Below, piece after piece: positions 42,439 to 61,457 of a DNA stretch of 64,000 bases. This stretch comes from Microvirga lotononidis (GTDB lineage Bacteria; Pseudomonadota; Alphaproteobacteria; Rhizobiales; Beijerinckiaceae). The notes beneath the pieces were generated by a model, which worked only from the letters and a program-made list of their open reading frames with translations, was not told where the DNA came from and searched no databases. Position 1 is the stretch's first letter, and each line of letters starts with the position of its first letter. The translations under genes and the position numbers were made by a program. The DNA is taken from assembly GCF_034627025.1 (NCBI RefSeq), contig NZ_CP141049.1, positions 1 to 64,000 on the forward strand, in the 5' to 3' direction.

Positions 42439-42822
42439 GTGGAAGATCCGGTCGGCACGTCAACAAACGCTTTTTTCACGCTGGAGAGCATGATGACGCT
42501 CGGCGGCGCCACGGGTGCGACGTTCGTCGTAGCAAACGGCATTCAACGTGCCTTCGATTATAACCCGCGTTGGCTCGCGCTCCTGATTGCCCAACTGGTC
42601 TGCCTTGGTGTGGTCTATCAATCGCATGGCGTCGGCAGTGACTATGTGATCGGCGTGATCAACGGCTTTCTAGTGTATTGCTCGGCAGCCGGTGCGACCG
42701 GCGCGGCCGGTGTGGCCTCAGGAGCGGCGCCGGTACGTGACGCGAGTGCGCGATCAGGCAACGTTACGCGCGAGGCCTCCCAGGCACCCGGCCATCGGCA
42801 ACTTTTCACGCCATGGTTTTGA
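42439..42822 (+). CDS. Small holin-like membrane protein
   Basis: The 127-residue product has at least two hydrophobic segments: TLGGATGATFVVANGIQ, then LALLIAQLVCLGVVYQ and YVIGVINGFLVYCSAAGATG. The C-terminal tail is charged. The GTG start at 42439 is chosen because AAGGAG ends five bases before it. Size and topology are holin-like, but no family is recognised. Its last 10 bases overlap the start of the caspase-like gene, so translation is coupled. This suggests that the two products act in the same place, probably in the inner membrane. Confidence 0.6.
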   Translation: MEDPVGTSTNAFFTLESMMTLGGATGATFVVANGIQRAFDYNPRWLALLIAQLVCLGVVYQSHGVGSDYVIGVINGFLVYCSAAGATGAAGVASGAAPVRDASARSGNVTREASQAPGHRQLFTPWF

Positions 42823-45605
42823 CCAGCATGTTGAGTGGATCAATCCAGGCAACAGCGTTCGGCGATCTGACGCGCGCCGTTCTCGTCGGCGTCAGCAACT
42901 TTGAAGACAAAGCCTTTCGGGAACTCAAGGCCTGCGCGCCGGAGACCGAGCGTCTTGGCGCGGCGCTGACGGACCCGGCTGGATGCCGCATACCCGATCA
43001 AAACGTTGATGTCGTCGTCGACGCACGCGCCACTTTGGATCAGGTCATACCGTTGTTGCAAGCGGCAAGCTCAGCGGCAACGCCGGATCAAATCCTCATC
43101 ATCTATTTTGCAGGGCACGGCGAGAAGATCGAAGGCGGTTTCGGGCTGATATTGCACGACACGCGACAGGCCGACCTAGCCCGGACGGCGCTGACCAGCG
43201 CCCAGCTCGACCGAATTTTCTCTGGCTGCAGGGCGCGGGGCCTACTGATAATCCTGGATTGCTGTGGTGGCGCGGCGCTAGCAGAGAATGCGCCCGCCTT
43301 CATGCAGCGGGTTGGGCAGCACGATTTCCGCATCCTCCTGAGCGCCTCGCGGGTCGATCAGTCGTCGTGGGAGACCTCGCGCGGATCCGTCTTTACCAAA
43401 CACCTGATCGATGTCGTGGAAGGGACCACGCAGGTTTCTGCCACACCCGGCCAAGTCTACTTCAATGACCTGTTGCGGCACTTGCGTAACTCAGTGGCTG
43501 AGGAGATTGCCAACGCAGGTGGGGAGTTGCCCCCACAGGAGCCGGTGTTCAATGGCGGCTACATCGACGATCCGCTGATCTTCGTTCACACTGGGGAGAC
43601 GCTGAAGCAGATCCGCGTGAAGGTCCAACGGTATTCGCAATCCTATGTGCGTGCGCGCATTCGCTTCACCATTCTGCTCATTGTGAGCCTATTGCTCCTC
43701 GGACTTGGCGGTTTCTGGCTCGTGCTCGATCAACATTACTTTCTTCAGGCAGGCGACCGTTCGACGGCCGTGTATCATGGCTACCCTGGCTTGAGTGGTC
43801 TAGGGTATCCCAAGCTGCTTTGGGCTGCTGAAGTACAGCGCAATTTCCTCAAGCCCGACAGCCCGCTCGTCAACAACGAAACGGTTGTTGCAAGACGCAC
43901 CCAGCCTCCGTTCGCCACCCTCTTGGCCGAACTGTCTCCGGCAGGCCAGTCCATGTTGTGGGTTTGGGCTGGTCAGAAGGAAGAAGCACGACGCCGGGCC
44001 AAGGCGGGCATGGACGCCGTCGGTGCGGACCGGCCGAACGATTGGGCGGAATTGGCGCAACTCTTCGCTGCCAACGCGACGGCTGCGGACATAGCGCCAC
44101 TTGAGGTACTGAGCCGACATCAGAATGTTTCCGTGGTTCAGGCCGCATTGCGGGCGCTGGCGCGGCTCAAACGAACTGACGCAGTCGAGGCCCTATCCCG
44201 GCGAGGCTTCGACATGAATCAGGCCGGCATCCATGTCAACGCGCTGAAGTATTGGGATCGGCCCTGCGACGACACGCTGCGGGACTATCTGAACAAGTTC
44301 CAGCGCGCCATGTCTTATAAGCAGTTCGTACGCGCGACACTCGAAACAGCATTGGATACACAATGTACCATTGACCTTGACCCGTTGCTGGCCGCCGACC
44401 GGGCCTACCTGGGCGCGGTCGCAACCTACTGGGCAACGCTGGGCGGCGAAACGCCAGGGGCACTTGCCAAGAATATCCAAGGTGAGATTGCAGTCACGAT
44501 CACGCGTATTGCCGAGGGTGACCACGGGGTAGTGCAGAAGGGATTCCCCATCCTAGATCGCCTCGTCGAGATGGGGCTTGCCTTGCCAAAAACCGACTGT
44601 CCTGTGCCTGCCACGGAAACAGGGTCCGCGCCGGCGCGCCAGAGCGTCATTGGCCGTTTCAGACAACTCATGGCGGCGCTCGACGGCGTGTCAAGCCCGA
44701 CAGCATTCCGCTACGAGCGCACGCGTTTGGCCGCATACCTGGCTGCGACATGCAAAGGCGTCACGGTGATCCTGATCCCTGCAGAGCAACCCGGCGCCCA
44801 GTGGTCGATCGCACTTGTGCAAGGAACAGAGCAGCAAATCGTAATGCAGTTTGCTTTCAATTCCAGCAACGTACCGATCGACGCTATTCAACTGGCCGAG
44901 TATATTACGGCGCCAGACCAAGCCGCGCCGCTTCAGGAGTTGGCTGCTGGCAATCTCGATGCATATTGGAAGTCACGGATTCTGCGGAAGCTACGCCTGT
45001 TGAAGGTGCCTGCCGCGCCGATCAACCCTTTCTTTAGCCGCGGAGAGGTGGAGCTTCAGGTCGAGGCCTACCTATGGCAGGCCTCGAGCGATCACGAAGG
45101 CGCGTTGCGCGCAGCTCTGGCGCGGCTGAATGACCCCACCGCTGAATTCCTTCCCGCGTTGTTGACACTTTTGGACAAGGACGAAAGTTCGCGCGCCGTA
45201 ATCATGCGCGCCTTGGCCGGGGCTGTTTCGGATGAGACCCGGCGCACCGCGCTCATCACCCTGTTCGGGACTAAAGATCAAGTTGCCGAAAGGCTAGCTT
45301 CACCCCAATCAGAGATTCGCGCAGTCGCGATCGACTATCTTCAATTCCGTGACGATCTTCTCGACGTTGCCGCGGTCGCGCAGCCGGCGCTGGTGATGCC
45401 GACCTTCTTTTCAGCAAATTTCACGAACATTGCGTTTCACCGCAGCCGGATCCGCGCTGATCTCGCTTCGACGCCTGACTGGGCGATCGCAGTCCGCTCG
45501 AAGCTAATGCTCGATACACGCAACGATCTGTCAAGTGGCCTGCGCCTTTGGATCGACCGGGAGACACGGCGGCGCACCGAAGGCTTGCCGCTGGGTAGCG
45601 AATGA
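42813..45605 (+). CDS. Membrane caspase-like protease with a large C-terminal half
   Basis: The 930-residue protein has an N-terminal caspase-like (peptidase C14) domain, about residues 20-260. The catalytic His is in IIYFAGHGEKI (H102) and the catalytic Cys in LIILDCCGG (likely C151), followed by SASRVDQSSWETSRGSVFTK. One transmembrane helix lies at about 285-305 (RFTILLIVSLLLLGLGGFW). The remaining 600 residues are helical with HEAT/Armadillo-like stretches (VVQAALRALARLKRTDAVEA, SEIRAVAIDYLQFRDDL). C14 proteases often act in programmed responses of bacteria. The domain probably faces the cytoplasm. Start codon 42828 is an alternative. It overlaps the holin-like gene. Confidence 0.88.
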   Translation: MVLTSMLSGSIQATAFGDLTRAVLVGVSNFEDKAFRELKACAPETERLGAALTDPAGCRIPDQNVDVVVDARATLDQVIPLLQAASSAATPDQILIIYFAGHGEKIEGGFGLILHDTRQADLARTALTSAQLDRIFSGCRARGLLIILDCCGGAALAENAPAFMQRVGQHDFRILLSASRVDQSSWETSRGSVFTKHLIDVVEGTTQVSATPGQVYFNDLLRHLRNSVAEEIANAGGELPPQEPVFNGGYIDDPLIFVHTGETLKQIRVKVQRYSQSYVRARIRFTILLIVSLLLLGLGGFWLVLDQHYFLQAGDRSTAVYHGYPGLSGLGYPKLLWAAEVQRNFLKPDSPLVNNETVVARRTQPPFATLLAELSPAGQSMLWVWAGQKEEARRRAKAGMDAVGADRPNDWAELAQLFAANATAADIAPLEVLSRHQNVSVVQAALRALARLKRTDAVEALSRRGFDMNQAGIHVNALKYWDRPCDDTLRDYLNKFQRAMSYKQFVRATLETALDTQCTIDLDPLLAADRAYLGAVATYWATLGGETPGALAKNIQGEIAVTITRIAEGDHGVVQKGFPILDRLVEMGLALPKTDCPVPATETGSAPARQSVIGRFRQLMAALDGVSSPTAFRYERTRLAAYLAATCKGVTVILIPAEQPGAQWSIALVQGTEQQIVMQFAFNSSNVPIDAIQLAEYITAPDQAAPLQELAAGNLDAYWKSRILRKLRLLKVPAAPINPFFSRGEVELQVEAYLWQASSDHEGALRAALARLNDPTAEFLPALLTLLDKDESSRAVIMRALAGAVSDETRRTALITLFGTKDQVAERLASPQSEIRAVAIDYLQFRDDLLDVAAVAQPALVMPTFFSANFTNIAFHRSRIRADLASTPDWAIAVRSKLMLDTRNDLSSGLRLWIDRETRRRTEGLPLGSE

Positions 45606-46951: not shown

Positions 46952-48643
46952 ATGGCTGAGGTCATTCAAACGATCTTTATCGACCCACCCATTGCTGTGG
47001 CGCGCCTCGGAAGCAGTTCCGAGTCACAAGAGGGATTTATGTGGGCCCGGTCGCCTGATCCGCGTGCCCATGGTGAAACCGCAGTTATACCGGATTGGAC
47101 CCTGCGCGTACTGCCCGATGGCTCAGTTGAACCCTACCTGCCTGGGGAGTTGCGCTTCCGAGACGGTCCGCAAGTCCGTCCGGTTTCCCCATTTTTCGAG
47201 GTTTGGGTACGCTTGGGCGAGAACGGTTCCGATCCTTCGACTTGGAGAGACGCACCCCTCACACCGGCTCTGCTCGCAGCGCAGGGTACCAACCTTACCG
47301 CGCTCGTGGTCACAGTTGACGCACGTAATGCCAAGGCCGCTCGGAGAACTGGACAGCCTCAGTTGGTATTCGGGACATTTCCAGCCGTCCACATTCGGGG
47401 TGATTACCATGCGCCGGTCCCGCTTTATGGAACGAGTCCGCCCGCCTCAAGCCGCCCTATGATACCGCTTGGGAGAGGCATACCCTTGGGCAGCGTGCAA
47501 CTCCTGCGCAGTCGAATGCAGCCAACGGAACGCTCTTGGAGCGAGGTAGTAAATGTGGAGACTGTCCGCCTGAGATTTACGCCCGCAAAAGGGCTTATCT
47601 TCGGGCCACCGGCCGCCGCAGAGACCACTCCCTTGCGTCCGTTTCCGGCTGTTCCAGTCGAGAATGCATTTTTGGACCCTTCGGCTGGTTGGTTTGGTGC
47701 GAGCGATGTTGGCGCATATGGCAATCCTGACGCAGGGCGGGTCGAGCCATCTGACACGTACGATGGTGCTGAGGCACCGGGGGAGAGTGGCCGAGTAGGA
47801 CCGTCGCTCGGCGTGATCGACGACACGTGCGAGGCTCGCATTCAGGTTACCCTCACCGTCCCTGGGTCTCCCGAGCTTCTTGCACGGGCAAATGTATTCG
47901 TGGGACCGCCCGACTTTGCGCCGGACCGACGCCCATTCCTCTCCCTCGCAGACGAGTTGAACGATCGCGCAGGCGACGCGACTGAGCGGAGTGCGGCGCT
48001 GACGGGTGTCGCGCTCGACCAATGGGTGGAGGACCTGTTTGAGCGGGTGTTCGAGACGATCTACCTGTTCAATGTCGACTGGTATCGCACTCGGAGGGCT
48101 GCCACTGTCCCATCCGACAAACTCCGCGCTATGTCCATCCCGGGCGACAAGGTTTCGGAACCAGGGCGAGCAATGGGTGGCCGCGACCCGCTTCGCAGCC
48201 CGGAGTTCACGATCCTTGACCCCACCACCAACGAGCCTTTGCCCCTATCCGAGCATGCGCGTACGCGGCACCGTGCTCTGTCGGACGTGTTGGAGCTGCG
48301 TGCATTTGTGCAGCGTCATCCAGGCCGTGTGAAGGAACTCGTTCGCCGTGCCTTCGAGATTGAGGCTAATGAGGGGGCCATCCAGACTACAATGCGCATG
48401 CCACCATTCATGCGCCAGTCCAACGCGCAGCCTCTTACGCTCGCAAGTTGGCAATATGACCTACTCATGCGTTGGGTCGAGGAGACCGAGCGGGCAGCCG
48501 CTGCTAAGGCTCCCGCAGCGGCGTCAGGCGTAGCGGCTTCTAGCCCAGTCGGACAACTCAGTAGCTTAGCCCAACAGCGGCGTGAGGACGTCCTTGAGCG
48601 TCTCGCGCGCGAGGCCAATAAGTACGGAGAGGGTGACATATGA
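46952..48643 (+). CDS. LodA-N-like protein, half of a split oxidase
   Basis: The 563-residue protein begins with IFIDPPIAVARLGSS, matching the LodA/GoxA N-terminal motif (compare YPPIGIARVGN of the LodA-like protein at 58359). It ends with LTLASWQYDLLMRWVEE (residues about 495-511), which resembles the stretch just before the cofactor-forming part of LodA. The Cys and Trp motifs that form cysteine tryptophylquinone are absent here; instead they occur in the N-terminal half of the protein at 49980. So this looks like the N-terminal half of a split LodA. ATG 46952 has GGAGG about 15 bases upstream. Its stop overlaps the radical SAM gene start by four bases. This assignment is inferred by eye. 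Confidence 0.6.
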   Translation: MAEVIQTIFIDPPIAVARLGSSSESQEGFMWARSPDPRAHGETAVIPDWTLRVLPDGSVEPYLPGELRFRDGPQVRPVSPFFEVWVRLGENGSDPSTWRDAPLTPALLAAQGTNLTALVVTVDARNAKAARRTGQPQLVFGTFPAVHIRGDYHAPVPLYGTSPPASSRPMIPLGRGIPLGSVQLLRSRMQPTERSWSEVVNVETVRLRFTPAKGLIFGPPAAAETTPLRPFPAVPVENAFLDPSAGWFGASDVGAYGNPDAGRVEPSDTYDGAEAPGESGRVGPSLGVIDDTCEARIQVTLTVPGSPELLARANVFVGPPDFAPDRRPFLSLADELNDRAGDATERSAALTGVALDQWVEDLFERVFETIYLFNVDWYRTRRAATVPSDKLRAMSIPGDKVSEPGRAMGGRDPLRSPEFTILDPTTNEPLPLSEHARTRHRALSDVLELRAFVQRHPGRVKELVRRAFEIEANEGAIQTTMRMPPFMRQSNAQPLTLASWQYDLLMRWVEETERAAAAKAPAAASGVAASSPVGQLSSLAQQRREDVLERLAREANKYGEGDI

Positions 48644-49983
48644 GCGTGGTCCAGCAGGTCGCAGAGCCACTCCTAGCCCCAGCGTGGAAGAGGTTCTCAT
48701 CATCTGCGGGCGAACACCTCCTGGTGGTGCCCCACAGTCGACTGTTCGACCTGCCGCCCGACGCTGCGGCGCGGTTCGACGAAGGTGAGGCGGGCGCGCT
48801 CGCCCTTGCCATGACGCTTGGCCAAGCCGGGCTTGGCGAGGACCGGCTAGACGTCGTACCGGAGCCCGCCCCCCAGAGTCTGTCCCTCAACGTGAGCTCC
48901 TCCTGCAATCTCGCTTGCACCTACTGCTACGCCGGCCGCGGCAGTTTTGGCAGCGCACAGATCGCAGCGATGACACCTGAGGTCGCGAACGCGGCGGTCG
49001 ACCGACTTCTCGCAGATGCAAGGCGAGAGCGGCCCGTGACCGTGGGCTTTCTGGGTGGAGAGCCCTTCGTCAACAGGGCACTTGTCCACCAAGTGGTTGC
49101 CTACGCGTCGGATGCGGCACGCCGGCGCGGCTTCGATCTGCGCTTTTCGGTGACGACCAATGGGACCCTACTGAACTCGGCTGACCTCGAACTCGTCCGC
49201 TCTAACCGGTTTGCGGTCACGGTAAGTGTAGACGGTGGAGAGGGTACTCATGACCGGCAGCGTCCGAGCGCTAGTGGGCGCGGCAGCTTTCGACGACTGC
49301 GGGAACACATCCGCCCCCTCCTCATTGAGCCGGGCAAAGCGCAGGTTGCGGCGCGAGTCACTGTCACACGGCACGATCTCGATCTGCCCATGCTCTTCGC
49401 CGAGCTCCGCGAGCTCGGCTTCGCGGAAATCGGCTTCGCACCGCTTCGCGCCGTCAGCGGCCGCCCTCACCGCGACGCTCTCCGCGCGGAGGACTGGCCA
49501 GTCTACTTGGACGCTCTGATCCGCGTCGCGAAGGCGGAGATCCGCTCGGCAACCGCGGGGATGCCCCTCGTCCTCACGAACCTTGCGGTGGCTCTCAAGC
49601 AAATTGGTGCAGGCGCGAGTTCGCCTTTCCCGTGTGGCGCCGGAGGCGGGTATTTTTCGGTGGCGGCAGACGGCCGCTGGTACGCTTGCCACCGTGCTGT
49701 CGGCGAGCCCGACTTCGAGCTCGGCGACAATACTGGCCTCGATCAAGCCAAAAGACGCGCGTTCCTCAGTGCCAGGCACGTCCATGCCAAGGCGGACTGC
49801 GGTGCTTGTTGGGCGCGCTACCTATGCTCAGGCGGTTGCCATCAAGAGGCAGCGACCCGGTCCCTAGAATCGTGCGACTTTGTCCGGGGATGGCTCGAGT
49901 TTTGCCTCGCCACCGCGTGCGAGCTACCTAGTCCCTCGGCCAAAGCCATCACAGATCATCGTTCCGGAGTCTGTCAGGCATGA
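48640..49983 (+). CDS. Radical SAM/SPASM maturase, QhpD/PeaB-like
   Basis: The 447-residue protein has the radical SAM cluster motif CNLACTYC at residues 89-96, then GFLGGEPFVN (SAM-binding GGE) and a C-terminal SPASM region with CGAGGGYFSV, YACHRAVGE, DCGACWARYLCSGGCHQE and a last Cys pair. An 80-residue N-terminal part precedes the barrel. In quinohemoprotein amine dehydrogenase biosynthesis the related enzyme QhpD makes thioether cross-links on Cys residues of the gamma subunit. Here the likely substrate is one of the neighbouring LodA-like chains, in trans. ATGA-type overlaps with both neighbours show strict coupling. No small precursor peptide gene is visible nearby. Confidence 0.85.
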   Translation: MSVVQQVAEPLLAPAWKRFSSSAGEHLLVVPHSRLFDLPPDAAARFDEGEAGALALAMTLGQAGLGEDRLDVVPEPAPQSLSLNVSSSCNLACTYCYAGRGSFGSAQIAAMTPEVANAAVDRLLADARRERPVTVGFLGGEPFVNRALVHQVVAYASDAARRRGFDLRFSVTTNGTLLNSADLELVRSNRFAVTVSVDGGEGTHDRQRPSASGRGSFRRLREHIRPLLIEPGKAQVAARVTVTRHDLDLPMLFAELRELGFAEIGFAPLRAVSGRPHRDALRAEDWPVYLDALIRVAKAEIRSATAGMPLVLTNLAVALKQIGAGASSPFPCGAGGGYFSVAADGRWYACHRAVGEPDFELGDNTGLDQAKRRAFLSARHVHAKADCGACWARYLCSGGCHQEAATRSLESCDFVRGWLEFCLATACELPSPSAKAITDHRSGVCQA

Positions 49984-51713
49984 GTGCGGAACACATACTG
50001 AAGCTCCACCCGCGCAATATTGCGGCCTTGCGGCGCGGCCGCGATCCGCAAGAGGCTTTGCGCACCATTCTCGGCAACCCTGTCTCGACCCGACTGGAAT
50101 CGGGGGTCGGCAACTGTTTCCCTGGCCTTGAGTGTGATCTGCGCAATCTAGAGCGACGCTTCTTTCCACATGTGGAGGTCGATATCTCAGACCAAGCCAT
50201 CCATCTCGTCGCGGTCGACGCGCTGGCAGTGGCGGAGGACAAAGAGATCGATGACGCCTGTCGGGCTGTCTACGCCGAGCTTTCTGATGACCTCCGGGCG
50301 GGTCAGAGTTGGACCGTAAAGGAAATGGCTGGCCGATTCGGCGAGTTGGGCGAGCAGAGGCTCGACATTGGAACCCTGAAGGCGCCAAGCATAGGTGAAG
50401 GGCGCCGCCCACCTGATGCATGGGTGGCCGTGCGCATGCTCACGGAAGGATCGCCTGTCGAACTTATCCTTCAGCGGGTCGACGACGGCCGAGAGCTCAC
50501 GCTCAGGGGCAACCGCCTCCGATACCTTGACGACGGCGGAGCCCTGGCTCCGGTATTCGTGCCAGGTGAACTCACCCAATCACTCTGCAGTCCATGGACC
50601 CACGATTTCCGCGATTGCGGATGTTTCTATTGGGCGTCCAACCACCCCGACATCGCTCTCACTCCCGCCATTGGCGCCGAAGGGGCCGATCCCGCGAGCG
50701 AACAAGACGTATGGGTCGTCTGGGAGCGCAGCGACCGAACCGGCCAGCCGCGACCTGCCAGCAACGAGCGGCCGCGGCGCTTCGAAATGGATCATTATGA
50801 GATTAATGGTGCCTGGGAGGCTCTGAACTTCGTCATCGAGAGCCGGGAGCTGACTGGACCCTATCTCGCCACCGGGCCAAAGGCAGTTCCGGCTCTTGCG
50901 TCCCAGGAGGAACTAGAGGCCAGCCTCCACTACGCTGCTGGTGTCGAACTTGGGGTGATGCTTGAATACCTCACCGCCATGTATTCGCTTCGCGACTCGG
51001 CCGGCCTCGAACTGCCGCTGCGCGACGACGTCCGGGCTGCCACTGCGGAGATCCTGCGGATTGCCATTGGAGAGATGCGGCACCTGAGAGCTGTGAATGA
51101 CTTACTCCGATCCATTCAGGGGCCAGCCCGCTTCAAACCAGCCCTGCGGGTTGCTACGCATGTTCCCAGCATTAAGGAAGGCGAGTTTCGTGCCATACAA
51201 GCCCGCCCCGCGACCCTCGATGTGATCGACGATTTCATCGCCGTGGAGGCCCCGTCAACATCCGTCGACGGCCTCTACGCACCAGTCCTCGCCTACCTGG
51301 AGAGATACGGCACTGACGAACAGGTGCAGGCCGTACGCTCCATCATGTTCGAAGGGGACGACCACTATGAAACGTTTAGTGCAATCCGCGAGTGGCTCGG
51401 GCGCCATCAGGAACGCGATTACCTCCGAGCAGTCACGCTGACCCCGCCACCAAACGACAATGAGGCCGGCGCGATCCTGCGGCACCGATACGCCGAGCTC
51501 CTCGCCGCTCTGTACAAAGGTTATGTGGTCGGCATGCCCACCGGCGCGCCTTGGGTGAACGGGGCCCGCGCCTTTATGCTCGCGCCTGACGGATTTGACG
51601 GGGCTGCCAAAGCTGTCGCGGCACAGGGTTTCCTCGCCATATTCTCTCCCCCGGACGGCGATCCCCGGTTCGAGCCGATCACGCCGCCCACCGTGGCGCA
51701 GCGCCTTGCCTGA
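49980..51713 (+). CDS. LodA-C-like domain fused to a ferritin-like diiron domain
   Basis: The 577-residue protein has two parts. Residues 1-270 contain GNCFPGLECDLRNL (Cys46) and SPWTHDFRDCGCFYW (Trp206), which match in order the Cys (CLGGPFHPGIE) and Trp (VPWQTDEASC) motifs of the LodA-like protein at 58359. These are the residues expected to form cysteine tryptophylquinone. Residues 270-490 are a ferritin-like domain. The diiron ligand pattern is E323 or E329 in YAAGVELGVMLEY, E365 and H368 in GEMRHL, and E458 and H462 in FEGDDHYETF. So an oxygen-using diiron site is joined to the cofactor segment. The first residue overlaps the radical SAM stop. The fusion is read by eye. Confidence 0.6.
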   Translation: MSAEHILKLHPRNIAALRRGRDPQEALRTILGNPVSTRLESGVGNCFPGLECDLRNLERRFFPHVEVDISDQAIHLVAVDALAVAEDKEIDDACRAVYAELSDDLRAGQSWTVKEMAGRFGELGEQRLDIGTLKAPSIGEGRRPPDAWVAVRMLTEGSPVELILQRVDDGRELTLRGNRLRYLDDGGALAPVFVPGELTQSLCSPWTHDFRDCGCFYWASNHPDIALTPAIGAEGADPASEQDVWVVWERSDRTGQPRPASNERPRRFEMDHYEINGAWEALNFVIESRELTGPYLATGPKAVPALASQEELEASLHYAAGVELGVMLEYLTAMYSLRDSAGLELPLRDDVRAATAEILRIAIGEMRHLRAVNDLLRSIQGPARFKPALRVATHVPSIKEGEFRAIQARPATLDVIDDFIAVEAPSTSVDGLYAPVLAYLERYGTDEQVQAVRSIMFEGDDHYETFSAIREWLGRHQERDYLRAVTLTPPPNDNEAGAILRHRYAELLAALYKGYVVGMPTGAPWVNGARAFMLAPDGFDGAAKAVAAQGFLAIFSPPDGDPRFEPITPPTVAQRLA

Positions 51714-52824
51714 CTTTGACCTCGCGGTGCTTGGGGCCGGGCCCGTCGGCCTCGCGGCCGCTGCCGAGGGGGCGCGCCTGGGGCGCCGCGTCCTCCTTGT
51801 GATGCGCTACCCCTTTAACCGAGGGAGGTCCGACACCATGCACGCGCCACGGGTCGAGGCTATTCCTGCCTCGACGCTAGCGCTTCTAGCACGATACGGC
51901 ATCACGCCTGGGCGCGTCGGTGCCGGCGAGGTTCACGGAGATCGTTGGGGGGCTTGGGCGGCGGAGGCTCCGGTAGCGCTGCCTGGGCGGCCGACTGTCC
52001 ATATCGAGCGGACTCTCCTTGAAGGTGCCTTCGTTGATCTGGTGCGCACCGAGCCCCGCATAACCGTTTGTGACGTGCCGGTTGCCCGTGGCGTCGGCGC
52101 CACTGATCTCGGCGCGGCACGCGTCCTCGACGCGACCGGGCGCCAAGCTGTGACGTCGGGGCTCAGAACGGGGCCGCGGCGCCCATGGGTCGGGAGACTG
52201 TTCTGGGCGCCGCGGCGCGCGACCACAGTGCCAGGGACCTTCTCCATCGCGGCCACGCCGAACGGTTACGCGTATCGCCTAGCCAGCACAGTTGGGGTCA
52301 CGCTCGGCCTCGTCGGGCGCGGCTCCGCCATCGCCAAAGGCGCCTCTGTCATTGATCGGTATCTCAGCTGCCACGCTCCATGGCTTCTCGGCGGCATGCC
52401 GCCTTTGTCGGATATGATGCCGGTGGCAGGCGGCGGCGCTACGGTGCAGTGGGGCGCGGCGGCACCGGGCACGATCCTTATCGGGGCCGCAGCCCTTGCG
52501 CGGGACGCGCTCTCCTCGCAAGGCCTTGCTGCCGGGCTCAGCGAAGCCTTGGCCAGCGCTTCGATAGCAAGCGGCTATGACGAGATCCTGTTATCCCACC
52601 GCCAAGAGGAACAGCGTCGGGCGCATCTTGCCCACCTGCTCCAGATTTGCCGCTCTCATCGTTTTGTTAACGAGCCAATCTGGGCTGAGTACATTGCGTT
52701 CTTGGAACGTGAGGCTCGGGCCCCCTCTCTTTCCAGCGCAGCTTTTGTAGACGAAGGTCTCATCGGATTGATCAGACGCAAGGGGAGGCCCCAATCGGCT
52801 GCGACGGCTAGGCCCGCGTCCTGA
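51706..52824 (+). CDS. LodB/QhpG-like FAD-dependent monooxygenase
   Basis: The 372-residue flavoprotein has the dinucleotide motif GAGPVG at residues 10-15, then an RVEAIPAST region and, near the end, an LSSQGLAAGLSEAL stretch of the FAD-binding domain. LodB is known to be needed for making the tryptophylquinone of LodA, and QhpG hydroxylates the precursor Trp of quinohemoprotein amine dehydrogenase. This is the presumed maturase for the split LodA of the operon. The start is TTG 51706, eight bases inside the previous gene; no ATG or GTG suits the frame. The protein is shorter than usual for this fold. Confidence 0.75.
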   Translation: MPDFDLAVLGAGPVGLAAAAEGARLGRRVLLVMRYPFNRGRSDTMHAPRVEAIPASTLALLARYGITPGRVGAGEVHGDRWGAWAAEAPVALPGRPTVHIERTLLEGAFVDLVRTEPRITVCDVPVARGVGATDLGAARVLDATGRQAVTSGLRTGPRRPWVGRLFWAPRRATTVPGTFSIAATPNGYAYRLASTVGVTLGLVGRGSAIAKGASVIDRYLSCHAPWLLGGMPPLSDMMPVAGGGATVQWGAAAPGTILIGAAALARDALSSQGLAAGLSEALASASIASGYDEILLSHRQEEQRRAHLAHLLQICRSHRFVNEPIWAEYIAFLEREARAPSLSSAAFVDEGLIGLIRRKGRPQSAATARPAS

Positions 52825-53433: not shown

Positions 53434-56157
53434 ATGGCGCATCAAGTATTTCCGACCCGTCTAAATTTAGATAGCCAGATCCATTACCATAGTGGCGGGC
53501 CGCCGCCAGTGGATGCGCTGACTTTACCGCCGGGAAAGCTTTATCGGCTGCGGCGAGGGCGTGACGCCTTTCCCAACGGCATGGATTCGACCGAGCAAGA
53601 GGTTCTCAACGATCCTCTCGCGACATTACTCCTGCGCCGAGGCATTTTCCCCCTTACGATGGGAGAACTGGATGCCGCACTCGCAGCTGACGGGACGCTG
53701 CCGCACCGGTTGTCCTTCGTCGTCGCCGAAGGGGGCACCATCCCGTTCAATGAAGCGCCGGCGCTGCAGCGCGGCTTCCGCTTCGTGATCGCTTACGGCC
53801 AGGAGGAGGGGGTTGCCGATCTGTTCGTCAGCACGGCGGCCCCGTTTGACAGCGCCAATCAGTTCTTGCAGGTGCTGGGCTGGGATGCCGCCGCAGGCGC
53901 CTTCCAGTTCTACGAGCGCCGCAACGGCAGCTGGTTCTGGGCAGGCAGTTCATGGGACTCGCTAGAGGAAGACATGCGGGGCAAAGGCCCCTTCGACAGC
54001 CATGTCAACGGCTCGATGGTAATGAAGGAATTGCGGGCCCCGTGGCTTCACTGGAGTAGCCAAAGCCACACGATTCCCGCCGAGACCATGGCGCCGGACG
54101 ACCCGCTTGCCGCCGATCCATTCTTCACCGATGCAAAAGGGGGCGAGACGCTGGAGAAACTGGTCGTCGATGGGATCGACCGGTGGACGAGCGCACGATT
54201 GGCGCTGGCTGTCGGAGCAGACGGCACGATTGCGCAACCCGACCGACTCATGCGTCACCTGCTGACCACGACGACCGTCAACATCGCCTGCTCGCCCGAC
54301 ACGTCGGTCGGACCGCCGGGCGCGCCGATCCGCATCCCCCGCAGCTTCTTCTTCAACACCCGCTGTCTCGTTGACCTACTCGGACTTCATCCGCAGGTCG
54401 AGCGGCCGCAGGTGAGCCGCGAGCGCTATTTGGCCTCCGCCAAAAGGCTCGGCCTCCATTTGGTCGATTCCAAGCAGGGTTTTCGGCGCGACGGCGACGT
54501 GCTTTTTGCCTGGGCCGTGCCGGAGCCTGCCTTTGAGGACATCGACGTGCTAGCGCATCTACTGCGGCGCGGCGTACTTTCCCAACGCTTCGCCTGCGCG
54601 CTCCTCATGGTAGATTTTCCCAATCCTGTGGGCTCAAAGTCGCGAGAAACGTTGATGCGCCACGTCCCCGGAGGCGTGGCGGCCAGCGGCCCCGGGCTGG
54701 AAAATCTGATGATGAAATCGCTGGAGGCGGCGGCTGCGGAAGATCCGTCCTCTCCCGAAGCGGAATTCCTTGTTCACTGGGGCGCCGATGATTCTACATG
54801 GCGGGACGCAGCGGCAGGGCGCATTAGCACCTTCATGGCGGCGGTCGCGGAGCGGCTTGCCGACGATGCTGGCCTTGACGACCTGATGCGGCTGGCGGAG
54901 TCGCGGCGCCGCGAGTTCCGCCGCCGGCCGCTAAGCGAGTTCGGACTGACCCTACCCCGGCTCGCCACTGTGGCGCCGGACGCCCCGCTTCTGCTCCTCA
55001 AAGCCGACGGGCGAGTCACAGGCTCAATCTCAAACAGTGAGGGAAATCCAGCCATGGCTTTCAACTTCGATCCGCCTGGACATCTCGAGGACTTGGACGC
55101 TGCCGGACGCCAGCGATGGCACGGCATTATCTCGCGGATCTTCGACCGCGCTCGGGAAGGTTCGCCGCAAGACAACGACGGGCCGAGGCTCCAGTTCTTC
55201 AACCCCGCATCCACCGCCGCAGGCGCTGATGCCGTGGAGGAGGACATCGAATGGTCGGCCTTTCCGCGGCAGGTTGAGATCGACAGCGGGAGCGATGAGG
55301 AGCGGTGGTCGGTTGCTGACGGCAGCCGCGACGTCCAAGACGAGTACTGCGAATGGAGCGTCGAACGGCAGGACGGCAACATCGTCCGGGTGTTCTTCAC
55401 TTGCGAGGGTCCCGAGTATTGGGAACTTTTGGCTGAGAGCAATTTCGACCTCGTCGTCGACCTCTATCGGCGGCATGTTAATCCGGGCGTAATGCCGGAC
55501 GACCTGCGAGACGGGGCCGGCAACTATCGGCCGCGTAACAAGTGGAACAACAGCACCACACGTGGGGCGATGCACCTCGTTCAGAGGGCGAATACGCTGG
55601 GCGCTGAGATCCAGCTCGCGGCGGGCGCCAGCATCGTGCGCGCCCGGCCGGACGGGACGGTGCTCACCGGAACCCGCGAACTCATCGATTGCAGCGGCTA
55701 CGGGGAGCGCGAGCGCCACAGTGACCCGACAATCGGCGCCAAGGTCAACGCGCATGCACGGGCTAGGTCCGACGTCACACTGGCCAACCCTGTTGGCCTC
55801 TATTTCGCCCGCGTGGACTTCGCAGCATGGGAAACCCCGGACGGCTCCGATCCTGCGGGGCTGTGGCGCTTCACGCGGGGGAAGAACGGCAAGTTCGTGC
55901 GGGCAGTGGTGGAGGCGCCCGCTGGCGCGGGCTTCACGCTTTCGCAGGTCAACATCAACAACCGCCCGCTGCGCTTCGGCGCACAGATTGTCGATACGAT
56001 CACCATGAAGCTCACTGCAGTCGCAACGCGGATTGGGCAGAGCATGGTGCAGCCGACGGTCGGCTGCCGTGGGCAGATCGGGGCCGGCGCGGGCATGGGC
56101 GCGCCATTGTCCTCTGAGGAGCGGCTAGTCGAACGGTGGCTGCGCGGCACCCGGTAG
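53434..56157 (+). CDS. Large protein of unknown family in a LodA operon
   Basis: The 907-residue protein is not recognised. Its N-terminal third contains FLQVLGWDAAAGAFQFYERR, then SWFWAGSSWDSLEEDMRG and APWLHWSSQSHTIP, with the aromatic pattern of a binding domain. The C-terminal third has FFTCEGPEYWELLAESNFD, RPRNKWNNSTTRGAMHLVQR and DCSGYGERERHSDPTIGA. This last part is cysteine- and aromatic-rich, and strongly patterned. There is no signal peptide or membrane segment. It is the first gene of the operon that ends with a LodA-like oxidase and its flavin maturase. It may be a further oxidoreductase or partner of that pathway. Confidence 0.6.
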   Translation: MAHQVFPTRLNLDSQIHYHSGGPPPVDALTLPPGKLYRLRRGRDAFPNGMDSTEQEVLNDPLATLLLRRGIFPLTMGELDAALAADGTLPHRLSFVVAEGGTIPFNEAPALQRGFRFVIAYGQEEGVADLFVSTAAPFDSANQFLQVLGWDAAAGAFQFYERRNGSWFWAGSSWDSLEEDMRGKGPFDSHVNGSMVMKELRAPWLHWSSQSHTIPAETMAPDDPLAADPFFTDAKGGETLEKLVVDGIDRWTSARLALAVGADGTIAQPDRLMRHLLTTTTVNIACSPDTSVGPPGAPIRIPRSFFFNTRCLVDLLGLHPQVERPQVSRERYLASAKRLGLHLVDSKQGFRRDGDVLFAWAVPEPAFEDIDVLAHLLRRGVLSQRFACALLMVDFPNPVGSKSRETLMRHVPGGVAASGPGLENLMMKSLEAAAAEDPSSPEAEFLVHWGADDSTWRDAAAGRISTFMAAVAERLADDAGLDDLMRLAESRRREFRRRPLSEFGLTLPRLATVAPDAPLLLLKADGRVTGSISNSEGNPAMAFNFDPPGHLEDLDAAGRQRWHGIISRIFDRAREGSPQDNDGPRLQFFNPASTAAGADAVEEDIEWSAFPRQVEIDSGSDEERWSVADGSRDVQDEYCEWSVERQDGNIVRVFFTCEGPEYWELLAESNFDLVVDLYRRHVNPGVMPDDLRDGAGNYRPRNKWNNSTTRGAMHLVQRANTLGAEIQLAAGASIVRARPDGTVLTGTRELIDCSGYGERERHSDPTIGAKVNAHARARSDVTLANPVGLYFARVDFAAWETPDGSDPAGLWRFTRGKNGKFVRAVVEAPAGAGFTLSQVNINNRPLRFGAQIVDTITMKLTAVATRIGQSMVQPTVGCRGQIGAGAGMGAPLSSEERLVERWLRGTR

Positions 56158-56215: not shown

Positions 56216-57607
56216 ATGGCGAATATGGCAAACCGCGGCAGCGGCGCCCAAGACGTGGGGAGGCGGGGGGCGCGGGCCCGCCGAGACGGCGACGGGCAAA
56301 CGGCCGCTTCGCACTATTTCCAGCCGCCGATCAGGCGAGCCCGCGCCCCCCGCCTTGCTGCCGGCCTCGGAGCCGCGCCCGCCGTCGGCATCGCTGTCCG
56401 TGGGGTCGAAGTTACCCAGGTCGTCCAGTCGCTGAACAACACGGTGCGCCTCATCGCCGACAAGCCGACCGTCGTGCGGGTCTACCTCGATCCGCAAAGC
56501 TTTGCCGGCACTACGATTGTGACGGCGGAAATTACTTGGCGCCGCGGGGGAGGAGGCGCCTTTTACTGGCCAGCAATGAACCGGGTGCGCATGAATCCCG
56601 CAAACCCGCTCGGGATAGACGAACAGCGCTTCGACATCGATCAAAGCATCAATTTTTCCCTTCCCAACGAGGCGATCGCGGCGGGGGACATCGAGTTGCG
56701 GCTGAACCGGGTAATGGTTCCGGGCGGCCCGGACATTCCCCTAGCGCCTCAGCCCGTGATCCGCCTGACCTTCCGGCCGTCCCCGCCGCTCCGCATTCGT
56801 GTGGTCGGTCTGCGCTACCGCAACAGGGCCAACACTCCCGTGACAGTCACGCCTGACGCCGTACACTTCAATGCGCTGAAATCCTATCTTCTGCGCGCCT
56901 ATCCGGTCTCTGCCCTCGAATGGTCTCAGATCGTGATCGATGGCAATGCCAGGCTGACGCTGCCTTTCGATCCGCCGAATCGGGCAGCGACGGCCGTGTT
57001 CGTGAACGCCCAATTGTCGGCACTGCGCGGCTCCGAGGTGTTCGGCATGAACCTTTCCGGCGCCGAGACGGCTCATATCGATCCGAGGACGCACTATTAC
57101 GGCTTGGTCGACGTCGATGGCAAAAACGGTGCCACAGTCAACTTTATGCGAGGGCAGGCTGACTACAATGAGCAGACGAAGGAATTCCAGATGGTCGCCT
57201 CGGGGCCGTGTGGCGTTCCGAAAACCAATGGCTGGGTTCTGTTCAGCTGGGATACTGATTCGAGCTTTGCGGACTGGTACGGTGCCCACGAGCTCGGCCA
57301 TACGTTCCAGCGCCGGCATCCCGGCTTCCCGCGCTACAATCCACAAACGGGGACGGGGCAGCCTCACGACCCCGACGAAACGGGCTTCCCCTATCCGGAT
57401 GGGCTAATCAGCACCCCGGACAACATCTTCGTCGGCTTTGACATCGGCGATCCGGATCTGGGTGTTCCGAGGCGTGCCCTGCCGGGGAACACGTACCACG
57501 ATGTAATGACCTATGCGGACAATCAGTGGCTTTCGGCTCATACTTATGAAGGGATCCACGAGCGGCTGCTTCTGGAAGACGAACTGTTCGCACCGAAAGT
57601 GGGCTGA
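56216..57607 (+). CDS. Metzincin-type zinc protease
   Basis: The 463-residue protein has the zinc-binding motif HELGHTFQRRH at residues 358-368, that is HExxHxxxxxH with the spacing of metzincins, and a Met-turn-like segment YHDVMTYADNQW downstream. About 340 residues of beta-rich sequence precede it. Metzincins normally have Gly at the sixth motif residue after the second His; here it is Gln. There is no visible signal peptide, so a cytoplasmic processing role is possible. GGAGGAG precedes ATG 56216. It is the second gene of the operon and could process one of the LodA-like precursors. Confidence 0.75.
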   Translation: MANMANRGSGAQDVGRRGARARRDGDGQTAASHYFQPPIRRARAPRLAAGLGAAPAVGIAVRGVEVTQVVQSLNNTVRLIADKPTVVRVYLDPQSFAGTTIVTAEITWRRGGGGAFYWPAMNRVRMNPANPLGIDEQRFDIDQSINFSLPNEAIAAGDIELRLNRVMVPGGPDIPLAPQPVIRLTFRPSPPLRIRVVGLRYRNRANTPVTVTPDAVHFNALKSYLLRAYPVSALEWSQIVIDGNARLTLPFDPPNRAATAVFVNAQLSALRGSEVFGMNLSGAETAHIDPRTHYYGLVDVDGKNGATVNFMRGQADYNEQTKEFQMVASGPCGVPKTNGWVLFSWDTDSSFADWYGAHELGHTFQRRHPGFPRYNPQTGTGQPHDPDETGFPYPDGLISTPDNIFVGFDIGDPDLGVPRRALPGNTYHDVMTYADNQWLSAHTYEGIHERLLLEDELFAPKVG

Positions 57608-57645: not shown

Positions 57646-58335
57646 ATGGCCGAAGATAACGAGGACAGGCTTATCCACGTGCTCGGCACGGTCGACCTGC
57701 AGCAGGGGACCGGTGAATTCCTCTATGTCAACCCTATCCGGGCCGGCGGGGTTCCGGCCGCCGGGGTGAATGCCGGCGCATCCGGATCGCCGGATTCCGC
57801 TGCACCTCCCCCGAGGCCGTTCGAACTGGTCGCGCAAAGCGCGCAAGGAAGAGAACTGGGGCGCTTCCGGCCTCCGATCCTGCTGCCGAGCGAGGCCGGG
57901 GACAACCCGACCGACGGAATGATCGACGTGGCTATCCCTTTCGTCGAGGGCATGCGGCGCCTCGTCCTTTTGTATGCCGGCAAGGAGGCTGCGGTTTTCG
58001 AGGCCGGCCCGCCTGCCGCCGTGGCGGCAGGCGGGCCGGCCTCAGGCCCTGCCATTGCAATGGGCGCTGCGCCGCTTGGCCACCCGGAGAAGCGCGAGAT
58101 GACCGTGGAGGGCGTGTCTAAGGGGGAACCTGGGGTCAGCTACACCGTCCAGGTGCGTCCGGAGGGCCATCAGGCCTGGCAAACGATCGCCGTGGGCAAG
58201 AATTCGCCGGACTTCCAGCTCGATCGCAACCAGTTCCCGGGCGCAGCGAGCGCCTCCGTCCGCGTGCTACGCAGCACCGGCTTCGACAGCGAGGTCATAG
58301 ACGAGAAGGAGGTAGATCTCCGCTTCGGCGAATAG
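57646..58335 (+). CDS. Unknown protein between the protease and LodA-like genes
   Basis: The 229-residue product appears beta-rich (VEGMRRLVLLYAGKEAAVFE, VSYTVQVRPEGHQAWQTIAV, ASVRVLRSTGFDSEVIDEKE) with a Pro/Ala-rich linker near residues 35-60. It could be two beta-sandwich domains. No family is recognised. It starts 38 bases after the protease gene, with GGAAGGAAGGGC in front, and ends 23 bases before the LodA-like gene. Its place in the operon suggests a partner or chaperone of the oxidase. Confidence 0.6.
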   Translation: MAEDNEDRLIHVLGTVDLQQGTGEFLYVNPIRAGGVPAAGVNAGASGSPDSAAPPPRPFELVAQSAQGRELGRFRPPILLPSEAGDNPTDGMIDVAIPFVEGMRRLVLLYAGKEAAVFEAGPPAAVAAGGPASGPAIAMGAAPLGHPEKREMTVEGVSKGEPGVSYTVQVRPEGHQAWQTIAVGKNSPDFQLDRNQFPGAASASVRVLRSTGFDSEVIDEKEVDLRFGE

Positions 58336-58358: not shown

Positions 58359-60344
58359 ATGGCGGTGCAGGCTTCGGATGTCGAGTGGGTCGGTGTGTAT
58401 CCCCCGATTGGCATTGCCCGGGTCGGAAACGCGCCGGGTGTCGACGACTACACGCTCGCCCCCGAGACCATCGGGGGCCTGCCGGATGCGCGCGGCGGCT
58501 ACCAGACGGCGAACGGCGCGATCAAGCGCCAGGCCGCGCGCTTCCGCCTCTATGCGAAGCTGCGGTCGGGGGGCTTCGCCGAGCTGACTGCGGGCGAGGG
58601 AGTTTCGATCGAGTGGCGCGTTGAGGTCGCGAACCTCAAGGCGGGCTGGTACCAGTTCAAGCAAGCCATGGATCTGCCGCCGCCATTTGCCAAGTCAGCG
58701 CAGTGGCGTAATGCCGACCACCGTCCCCGCGCCGACCTGGACATCCGGCCGGTGCGGCGCGTCATCGGCGGTACGAATCTGAGTGGCCCCGCCTACAGGT
58801 TCGACGATGGGCAGTTCCTGGGCAGCTTCGTTCCCCTCGGCGAGTTGCGCACGGACGAGGCGGGCCGACTCCTCTTCCTCGGCGGCAGCGGCGTGTCCGC
58901 TTCCTTTCCGCCGGGGATGCGGCCCACTACCTTTGCCAACAACGACCGCTGGCACGACGACCTAGCCGATGGGCCCGTGCGCGCCCGCGTGACGATTGGC
59001 GGAACGACGTTCGAGGCGGAGCCCGGCTATGTGGTTGTGACTCCGCCCAACTATGCGCCGGGCCTCAGCGGCCTCGTGACCATGGACGACACGGTGCGCG
59101 AGACTTTCATGGCGCAGGGCTGGCTGCCGCGCCCGACTGAAACGAACTTCTCGGCTGACGTGTGGCCGATCTTCGAGCGCCTTACGCGGTTGCAATGGAT
59201 CAATCACGGGCTATTTGTGGCTCACGGAATCGGCTCGCCACTCAATGCCGCGTCGCCTGAGGTCGTCACGCGCCTTGCCGACGCATCGGCCGAAAACCGC
59301 CCCTGGCGCGAGCGCGTCTTCGCCCTATTCCGCGCCCCAGGTCCGCTGGGTCCGGCGCCGCTTCTCCAATTGCCCTACATCTATGGCGACCTCTACGGCG
59401 AATCCGGGGAGGCCGTCCTTACCTTGCTTTCTGTGACGATGACAATGCATGAGCACCTGCGGCGCTGGAAAGAAGGCGACTTCGCTTCCGATTGGGCCGG
59501 CCCCCCGATCCCAGTTGACTTTGCCGGGCACACCCCCGAGGGGCAAGTTGCACAGCTCACGCGCGCGGGCCTCAGCGAGTGCCTGGGTGGGCCGTTCCAC
59601 CCTGGCATCGAGATTTCCTGGCCGCTGCGCCGCCCTGAGCTTTGGGCGCTCCACCACCGGCCGGAGATCGCGGAGAGAGGGCTTTACCGACTTAATCTGA
59701 TCGCGGAAGGAGAGGCCGTGCGCCAGGATTTCGGGGCGACACTCACGCCCGAGGTCTGCCTTGGGCCGGATGGGGCGACTGGAGCAGCTGGGCCGGGCGC
59801 GCTGACCCGGTGGTTGGGCGTGCCCTGGCAGACTGACGAGGCGTCTTGCAATTCCAGTGCCGACTACGAGCCCAGCACTTTCCTTTCCATGCCGAGTTTC
59901 TGGGGGGCGCGTGTGCCGGAGCAAGTGCTGAGCAGCGAGTCCTGGACCCGCGTGACTGAGGTGCCGGCCACGCCCGGGAACGCGGCCTTCTTACAACGCC
60001 TGAAGCATGCCTTCCACCGAGAGGACTGGCTGAGAGACGTTCGCGGGCGCACCTATTTCGAGCGAATCGACAACATGGTCCGTCTCTGGGCGACTCTGGG
60101 CGTGCTGGAGCCGAGGCCCACGCCGGACTGGCTAGTGCAGACCGGCTTTCCTACCGAGGTCCATCTCGAAACCGGGCGCGACGACGCCAATCCGGGAACC
60201 GACCAGAAACCGAAACTCGTAGCGATCATCGAGGCCCTTGCTGGCGACGTGACGCCGCCCACAATCGCGGCGCCTAGCGAGGGGCCGGCGGGGCCGCAGG
60301 TGCATGTGCCGCCCCGCCATCGGTTCCGACAGGGCGAGATCTGA
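58359..60344 (+). CDS. LodA/GoxA-like CTQ-dependent oxidase
   Basis: The 661-residue protein is a full-length LodA/GoxA homologue. The N-terminal motif is VGVYPPIGIARVGNAPG, the middle part has VTMTMHEHLRRWKEGDF, and the C-terminal domain carries the Cys of the tryptophylquinone motif (SECLGGPFHPGIEISW, C408) and the Trp (GVPWQTDEASC, W490). These residues are expected to form cysteine tryptophylquinone. LodA acts on lysine and GoxA on glycine, releasing ammonia and peroxide; the substrate here is unknown. It is shorter than LodA (726 residues). No signal peptide is seen. A LodB-like flavoprotein follows directly. Confidence 0.88.
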   Translation: MAVQASDVEWVGVYPPIGIARVGNAPGVDDYTLAPETIGGLPDARGGYQTANGAIKRQAARFRLYAKLRSGGFAELTAGEGVSIEWRVEVANLKAGWYQFKQAMDLPPPFAKSAQWRNADHRPRADLDIRPVRRVIGGTNLSGPAYRFDDGQFLGSFVPLGELRTDEAGRLLFLGGSGVSASFPPGMRPTTFANNDRWHDDLADGPVRARVTIGGTTFEAEPGYVVVTPPNYAPGLSGLVTMDDTVRETFMAQGWLPRPTETNFSADVWPIFERLTRLQWINHGLFVAHGIGSPLNAASPEVVTRLADASAENRPWRERVFALFRAPGPLGPAPLLQLPYIYGDLYGESGEAVLTLLSVTMTMHEHLRRWKEGDFASDWAGPPIPVDFAGHTPEGQVAQLTRAGLSECLGGPFHPGIEISWPLRRPELWALHHRPEIAERGLYRLNLIAEGEAVRQDFGATLTPEVCLGPDGATGAAGPGALTRWLGVPWQTDEASCNSSADYEPSTFLSMPSFWGARVPEQVLSSESWTRVTEVPATPGNAAFLQRLKHAFHREDWLRDVRGRTYFERIDNMVRLWATLGVLEPRPTPDWLVQTGFPTEVHLETGRDDANPGTDQKPKLVAIIEALAGDVTPPTIAAPSEGPAGPQVHVPPRHRFRQGEI

Positions 60345-61457
60345 TTGGCGGAGGGCCGGGCACCACAGTGGGACGCGGCGGTCGTGGGCGCTGGAGCGGC
60401 CGGGCTGGCAGCGGCGGGAGAGCTGGCGCGGCTCGGCCGAAGTGTCGTCGTGCTCGATGGCGACGGGATGGTGCGGCGCAAGCCAGGAGAGGTGCTGACG
60501 CCCAATGCCGTGCCCTCGCTCGCAGCTCTCGGCCTTCTCGATGAGCTTGCCATTGATAACCAACTCGCCATGCCGCTCCTGTCGATCCAGCGGTCCTGGG
60601 CCGCAGAAACTGTTGAGCGGGACGACCTTCTAATGCATCCCGGTGGGCGCGGCTGGTCAATCGACCGGCTGCGCTTCGAGGCGCTGCTGGCGAGCCGGGC
60701 CGCCGCGGCTGGCGCCGTGCTGAGCAAGGGCATCCGGGTTGACGGGCTGGACGGTGTGGCCGGGCAGTGGAGACTCAGTGTGGGAGCGGCAGGCCGGGTC
60801 GAAGCGCGCTTCCTCGTGGATGCGAGCGGGCGCCCGGCCGTCCTGGCCCGCCGCCTGGGCGCGCGGCTGGGGCGACCGAAGCGCCTGCTGGCTATCCACG
60901 CCTTCTGCCGCCTCGCCGAGGAGGTTAGCGAGGCCGCGCATCTATCGGTGGCGGCGGCACCGGACGGATGGTGGTACGCGGTGGAGGTACCTCAGCGATC
61001 CTTCGCCTGCGGCTATCTTTTCGCCCCTAGTCTGTCCTCCTCCTCGGCTAGCGACCCGCGTCGCCGGCTGCTCCAGGCGTGCGCCGAGGCCGGGCCGTTT
61101 GCCCTACGGATCCAGCGAGTCGTCCAGCAAGGCGAAATCTGCCTTGTCGACGCGTCAAGCTCGCTTCTCGATAAGGCCGCCGGAGAGGGTTGGATCGCGG
61201 TGGGAGACGCGGCGGCGAGCTTCGATCCACTCGCCTCACAAGGACTCGCGAATGCCTTGGCATCGGGCCTGGCCGGCGGCCGCGCGGCGCACCGTGCTCT
61301 CTGTGGCGACAACTCTGCCCTGCCTGCCTACGCCGCTGCCATCCGCGCGACATGGCAGCACAGTCATGCGCGCCTCGTACCGATCTACTCCGCCGTTCGG
61401 CGCTGGCCTGAGGGCGGCTTCTGGACGTTCATGTCCACGCACGGCCATATAGTGTGA
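60345..61457 (+). CDS. LodB-like FAD-dependent monooxygenase
   Basis: The 370-residue flavoprotein has GAGAAG at residues 15-20, a DGDGMVRRKPGEVLTP stretch, and SQGLANALASGLAGGRAAH near the C-terminal end. It is the partner type expected for a LodA-like oxidase: LodB is required for forming the quinone. The TTG start at 60345 immediately follows the stop of the oxidase gene, so translation is coupled. The other LodB-like gene of the window also starts at TTG. It ends the operon; 370 noncoding bases follow. Confidence 0.85.
   Translation: MAEGRAPQWDAAVVGAGAAGLAAAGELARLGRSVVVLDGDGMVRRKPGEVLTPNAVPSLAALGLLDELAIDNQLAMPLLSIQRSWAAETVERDDLLMHPGGRGWSIDRLRFEALLASRAAAAGAVLSKGIRVDGLDGVAGQWRLSVGAAGRVEARFLVDASGRPAVLARRLGARLGRPKRLLAIHAFCRLAEEVSEAAHLSVAAAPDGWWYAVEVPQRSFACGYLFAPSLSSSSASDPRRRLLQACAEAGPFALRIQRVVQQGEICLVDASSSLLDKAAGEGWIAVGDAAASFDPLASQGLANALASGLAGGRAAHRALCGDNSALPAYAAAIRATWQHSHARLVPIYSAVRRWPEGGFWTFMSTHGHIV

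Follow-up and report, generated by a model that had tools for sequence, protein, structure and literature searches.

A two-chain LodA-like gene set with QhpD- and QhpG-like maturases and a putative caged tryptophylquinone segment in Microvirga lotononidis

Which enzyme would be built by a gene set that places a LodA-like chain beside two cofactor maturases, and which of its residues would carry the cofactor? The question is raised by positions 1 to 64,000 of contig NZ_CP141049.1 of Microvirga lotononidis (RefSeq assembly GCF_034627025.1), a stretch of 64,000 nucleotides that we call the window, in which four plus-strand genes at 46952..52824 are coupled by overlaps of 4, 4 and 8 bases. We propose, at a probability of roughly two in three, that these genes encode and mature one quinoprotein: the first and third products (p1 and p3) would form a LodA-type enzyme; a radical S-adenosylmethionine (SAM) enzyme and a flavoprotein would mature it in the manner of QhpD and QhpG; and its cysteine tryptophylquinone (CTQ) would join Cys213 to Trp218 of p3.

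Layout, recurrence and scaffold of the gene set

The set begins with p1 (46952..48643, ATG start), a 563-residue chain resembling the N half of LodA; it continues across a 4-base overlap with a QhpD-like radical SAM/SPASM maturase of 447 residues (48640..49983) and across a second 4-base overlap with p3 (49980..51713), the 577-residue chain that we propose to bear the quinone and that ends in a ferritin-like domain; and it closes with a LodB/QhpG-like flavoprotein (51706..52824), which overlaps p3 by 8 bases. The open frame of the flavoprotein spans 51595 to 52824, and TTG at 51706 is its likely start; family searches used the protein from 51694, four residues upstream of that codon. A preliminary description of this DNA had reported the coupling overlaps, a LodA N-terminal motif (IDPPIAVARLGSS) but no Cys/Trp cofactor motif in p1, the motifs GNCFPGLE (Cys46) and SPWTHDFRDC (Trp206) in p3, and the radical SAM/SPASM character of the second product; all of these are borne out, the last by a PF04055 match of 51.8 bits (cut-off 29.5).

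The gene set is real and recurs in other genomes, a point that the same description had singled out for checking. When the GTDB collection was scanned with a p3 alignment of three rows, 63 loci emerged, several of them near-duplicates, representing at least eight phyla (Pseudomonadota, Cyanobacteriota, Actinomycetota, Myxococcota, Acidobacteriota, Planctomycetota, Nitrospirota and Chloroflexota); of these, 60 have p1, 58 have the radical SAM gene and 56 have a flavoprotein adjoining the core. Contig ends account for the losses, with these exceptions: p1 is missing from L037, where the p3 frame is also broken; L050, with 1.3 kb of contig left, lacks both the radical SAM gene and the flavoprotein; and L014 lacks the flavoprotein. 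Two orders dominate: p1-radical SAM-p3-flavoprotein and p1-p3-radical SAM-flavoprotein. Gene order was surveyed by tblastn, for which many flavoproteins are too divergent; an apparent lack of the flavoprotein from p1-radical SAM-p3 loci was rejected as an artefact of tblastn sensitivity, reading of open reading frames (ORFs) and a hidden Markov model (HMM) search having found it in those 56 loci. Most of these proteins had served to train the HMM, whose scores for them are circular; the flavoproteins of L029, L037 and L073, outside the training set, are placed divergently upstream.

Within the order (297 genomes), two full-length p3 relatives were found besides the window's, both accompanied by p1 and a radical SAM gene of the set, together with three further matches restricted to the ferritin-like part; one of the two relatives, L008, lies on the same contig as L044 and was counted once. 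A whole-phylum search (three-row p3 alignment, 398 genomes) returned no full-length p3 except the window's own, and viral contigs gave no matches. A tblastn search of 72,556 plasmid records with p3, with no motif in the query, gave 17 matches; p1 and the radical SAM gene occur in all 12 loci analysed, and tblastn finds a flavoprotein in 11, an unmatched ORF sitting at the flavoprotein position in L080. Seven of the annotated plasmid loci label p1 or the short p3 as hypothetical proteins; p3 is shorter in the Rhizobium plasmid and Bradyrhizobium versions of the set. On plasmid p5 of Azospirillum argentinense (L083, 5722-7997), an IS3 transposase adjoins a p1 homologue and a radical SAM gene that is shortened; this stretch is without the p3 motif and looks like a remnant.

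Together, p1 and p3 very likely constitute a split LodA-type enzyme. The fold of p1 agrees with the N half of LodA/GoxA in a structure comparison, and a Polyangia metagenome-assembled genome carries a natural p1-p3 fusion (L036:8318-11653). The two-chain LodA of the preliminary description stands as far as the p1 fold is concerned, but neither chain passes a LodA Pfam cut-off: p1 matches no Pfam model at E ≤ 1, LodA_N (PF17990) included, the sole LodA_N match in the whole genome (58398-59039) lying in a canonical LodA downstream, and p3 reaches 16.9 bits against LodA_C (PF18417; cut-off 25). The single well conserved Cys of p1 is Cys293 (38 of 43 aligned rows). In the fusion-model alignment, 22 and then 45 p3 rows are in register, and about ten of the 19 p1 rows extend 37-51 residues beyond the join. 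A structure search with the p3 model returned no LodA or GoxA among the 50 matches listed, the rows being dominated by ferritins; a LodA fold remains compatible with this result.

The cofactor segment of p3

Where in p3 would the CTQ lie? On the reading of the preliminary description, Cys46 and Trp206 of a two-chain LodA would form it, and the radical SAM enzyme would make a further crosslink apart from the CTQ. Trp206 is invariant in all 45 aligned p3 rows and Cys46 is present in 42 of them; however, Cys46 is replaced by T in L066 and L072, by S in L009 and L084 and by F in L081, and all five loci keep p1, the radical SAM gene, the 203-224 block and the remainder of the segment. Moreover, when p3 is aligned with LodA profiles over 49 columns (E 0.008, probability 4.9%; PGELTQSLCSPWTHDFRDCGC...FYWASNHPDIAL against PGALTRWLGVPWQTDEASCNS...PSFWGARVPEQVLS), Cys213 falls on canonical C497, the Cys after the DxxxC motif; Trp218 falls on W515, the downstream Trp; and Trp206 falls on W490. 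The CTQ Trp581 of LodA, in turn, comes after Cys516 in sequence. On the strength of the Cys46 substitutions and the profile alignment we rejected Cys46/Trp206 as the cofactor pair and hold a CTQ there to be very improbable; Cys213 and Trp218 are invariant in 45 of 45 rows.

The segment spanning p3 residues 203-224 (50586..50651, plus strand; CSPWTHDFRDCGCFYWASNHPD) would contain, besides the CTQ at Cys213-Trp218, thioethers Cys203-Asp209 and Cys215-Asp224. Six residues correspond in order between p3 and QhpC: C203/C27, D209/D33, C213/C37, C215/C41, W218/W43 and D224/D49. QhpD is reported to link Cys to Asp or Glu at three QhpC sites, Cys41-Asp49 being one of them. QhpC-type crosslinks in p3, together with the CTQ at Cys213-Trp218, are likely. 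The other two QhpD thioethers of QhpC we take to be Cys27-Asp33 and Cys7-Glu16. A counterpart of the third may be sought in NCFPGLECD (p3 residues 45-53; 50112..50138, plus strand), where C46-F-PGLE51 resembles QhpC C7..DPGWE16 and Cys46 could pair with Glu51 or Asp53; Cys46 is not invariant in the aligned rows, Glu51, otherwise invariant, is replaced by Gly in three related cyanobacterial p3 proteins that keep the invariant Asp53, and 151 residues separate Glu51 from Cys203. The five loci with a replaced Cys46 (L066, L072, L009, L081 and L084) form a natural test of this third thioether.

A pattern of residues and spacings, composed after both the p3 and the QhpC sequences were known, gave 65 matches in 2,491,608 six-frame residues from 69 sequences, every one of them the p3 motif, as compared with 0 in 20,025 shuffled p3 sequences and 4 in 1,000,000 shuffled QhpC sequences. 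All six residues are present in 62 of the 65 p3 proteins, the remaining three (L037, L058 and L074) being unreadable through a late frame start in two and a contig end in one. The 63 GTDB loci were selected by two patterns derived from the p3 motif, and the plasmid set is therefore the better test of conservation: among the 12 plasmid loci, the 203-224 block is kept in 12 and Cys46 in 10.

Maturases, ferritin-like domain and proposed route

The maturase pair points to maturation of the quinohemoprotein amine dehydrogenase (QHNDH) type on a LodA-type scaffold, because the best-matching families of the two maturases are QhpD and QhpG. The best NCBIfam model for the window's radical SAM protein is TIGR03906 QhpD (261.3 bits), as it is in five relatives (287.0-328.6 bits), and the next-best model is the ranthipeptide maturase PapB; across 358 columns the protein shares 33% identity with an annotated QHNDH maturase. 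All that PADLOC reported was a weak, generic match to a radical SAM protein (viperin, 47.5 bits) and an upstream caspase match. The QhpG model NF049967 (cut-off 240) is passed by five of nine tested flavoproteins of the set (L008, 248.4; L078, 287.5; L079, 272.6; L085, 279.9; L036, 249.6 bits). For the window's own flavoprotein, the earlier LodB/QhpG-like assignment holds in that its best NCBIfam model is QhpG, but its score of 43.9 bits is far below the cut-off.

The preliminary description did not include the ferritin-like domain at p3 residues 302-556 (50883..51647, plus strand), where residues 316-436 match PF12902 at 46.3 bits (cut-off 22.3). E323, E365, H368, E423 and H462 are found in all 45 p3 rows, and position 458 is E or D; because these ligands are invariant, the domain likely has a metal site, probably diiron. 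Its fold is established as ferritin-like. A role in accepting electrons or in handling peroxide would be a guess. Compared with PF12902 ferritin-like proteins (structure 3hl1, Caulobacter CC_0557), the domain in p3 is fused to a cofactor domain; a separate PF12902 neighbour protein is found on the R. leguminosarum, M. endofungorum and Rhizobium CB3171 plasmids (three of three scanned).

It could be argued that p3 carries radical-SAM thioethers and no quinone, that the flavoprotein serves otherwise, and that p3 acts through its diiron-type domain. All 45 rows keep the thioether residues and the diiron-type ligands, and some flavoproteins, the window's among them, are distant from QhpG. However, Cys213 and Trp218 equal the thioether residues in invariance, and the flavoprotein adjoins the core in most loci, with five of nine tested passing the QhpG cut-off; we regard a quinone-free p3 as improbable.

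Several results weigh against a QhpD/QhpG-matured CTQ on a LodA scaffold. No radical SAM protein tested attains the QhpD cut-off of 453; the flavoprotein of L035 (101.5 bits), like the window's, stays below the QhpG cut-off, those of L009 and L015 gave no QhpG match at the limits used, and no flavoprotein was found in L014 in about 10 kb searched on the far side of the gene. The cofactor segment has a predicted local distance difference test score (pLDDT) below 60 in both predicted models, so the C half is unmatched to LodA by fold, and the LodA-profile match is weak. The Cys-Cys-Trp spacing is C-x-C-x2-W in p3 and C-x3-C-x-W in QhpC; profile-profile comparison of p3 with QhpC gave a single-comparison E of 0.069; and its score, which does not stand out clearly from chance, was reached by 11 of 200 column shuffles with two QhpC sequences and by 4 of 150 with four, L093 and L094 having been added out of five QhpC loci in the class. 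Finally, the 63 GTDB loci include near-duplicates, and motif conservation among them is partly circular.

The shuffles and the differing spacing would suit convergence, with p3 bearing an ordinary Cys/Trp-rich metal or crosslink site on which a QhpD-like enzyme makes different bonds. But six functional residues stand in the same order, two spacings are identical, and the maturases' best families are QhpD and QhpG; convergence alone would, moreover, leave the predicted chemistry unchanged. We consider this explanation unlikely, although it deserves to be kept in mind.

In the route that we favour, which ends in a quinone at Cys213-Trp218, p1 would supply the N half, and p3 the cofactor segment and the ferritin-like domain. 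The QhpD-like enzyme would act first, its two thioethers caging p3 203-224, with a further one perhaps running from Cys46, where it exists, to Glu51 or Asp53; the flavoprotein would next hydroxylate Trp218; and Cys213 would then bond to Trp218 to give the CTQ. Asp209 would be the catalytic base near the quinone; GoxA Asp678, within PWQSD(678)AASC(682), is equated with QhpC Asp33, four residues ahead of the CTQ Cys37 (PMC7876137). The p1-p3 enzyme would oxidise an amine or amino acid to an aldehyde or keto acid and ammonia, with electrons passing to O2 or via the ferritin-like domain.

Neighbouring genes and known systems

Downstream on the plus strand lie three associated genes: f907 (53434..56157), which recurs beside the set and matches no Pfam or NCBIfam model at E ≤ 1; g463 (56216..57607), with no match above a Pfam cut-off; and g229 (57646..58335), with no Pfam match. 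They are followed, about 6 kb downstream of the split set, by a pair (58359-61457) absent from the preliminary description: a canonical single-chain LodA/GoxA-family oxidase (58359..60344, plus strand; LodA_N 209.6 and LodA_C 97.7 bits, both above cut-off; NCBIfam GoxA 353.5 bits, cut-off 750) and its LodB/GoxB-like flavoprotein (60345..61457, plus strand; GoxB 200.6, LodB 146.1 and QhpG 129.6 bits, none above cut-off). All five genes recur beside the split set in L009, L070, L072 and L079 (Bradyrhizobium barranii plasmid); L022 has g463, g229, lodA and lodB and no f907 match.

The radical SAM enzyme and flavoprotein of the set might act on another nearby substrate, for example the canonical LodA or f907, a canonical LodA lying near the set in the window, L009, L022, L070, L072, L079 and L082. 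However, a canonical lodA match occurs in just 3 of 36 GTDB loci of at least 20 kb, whereas the radical SAM gene remains linked to p1 and p3, and the canonical LodA is without the thioether Cys and has its own flavoprotein; the chance of such a substrate seems to us slight indeed.

Upstream of the set, the window encodes a caspase-domain protein (42813-45605; PF00656, 56 bits) and a GMC oxidoreductase (38875-40743) flanked by two proteins without a Pfam match (37124-38872 and 40772-41671). Elsewhere, both L081 (Mesorhizobium sp. AR10) and L078 (R. leguminosarum) have tyrosinase-family genes near the set, and L081 has a multicopper oxidase as well; such neighbours are reported for some lodA operons (PMC4417212).

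The split set shares with the LodA/GoxA family (L-lysine epsilon-oxidase and glycine oxidase) and LodB/GoxB the p1-half fold, the cofactor motif PGxLT..PWxxD...C ... [FY]W and a flavoprotein neighbour, but it differs in having two chains (or a single fused one, or seemingly three), additional Cys203 and Cys215 and a ferritin-like domain in p3, a radical SAM partner, and no LodA Pfam model above cut-off in p1 or p3. Campillo-Brocal 2015 (PMC4417212) describes fungal lodA-like genes that have PF12902 genes as neighbours, and also proteins in which LodA is fused to pfam14518; the words radical and split are absent from its main text. With QHNDH (QhpC, QhpD and QhpG) the set shares the crosslink residues and the maturase families, QhpG above cut-off in five relatives, and the radical SAM gene lies directly ahead of its proposed substrate p3 as peaB does ahead of qhpC; unlike in QHNDH, the cofactor segment is embedded in a 577-residue chain. 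The QHNDH gamma subunit (PF08992) has no match in the window's genome, as against matches in 5 of 289 genomes of the class, and neither a heme subunit nor a QhpE protease was found among the ORFs scanned around the set. The view that no such set had been described agrees with our search of the openly licensed PMC literature, in which we found no paper combining a LodA-like or tryptophylquinone enzyme with radical SAM, QhpG or ferritin-like partners.

The tryptophylquinone routes of QHNDH, LodA/GoxA and methylamine dehydrogenase have been presented as divergent strategies converging on the same cofactor (PMC7876137). As a tentative proposal, for which the odds fall somewhat short of even, the p3 family could be a missing link that joins LodA to QHNDH. 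Its LodA scaffold would have kept or gained the thioether-caged CTQ of QhpC and the QhpD/QhpG pair, and its quinone would be coupled to the diiron ferritin-like domain. If so, both tryptophylquinone families would share one ancestral cofactor segment, and LodA would have lost the cage along with the radical SAM enzyme. The presence of QhpC-type crosslink residues and QhpD/QhpG-type maturases in a LodA-type system allows this common origin to be tested directly and would link two enzyme families hitherto studied separately. The set would also offer a natural split-protein system for the study of CTQ assembly, with a possible diiron partner domain for a quinoenzyme, and would give a function to plasmid proteins annotated as hypothetical, radical SAM, ferritin-like or tryptophan 7-halogenase.
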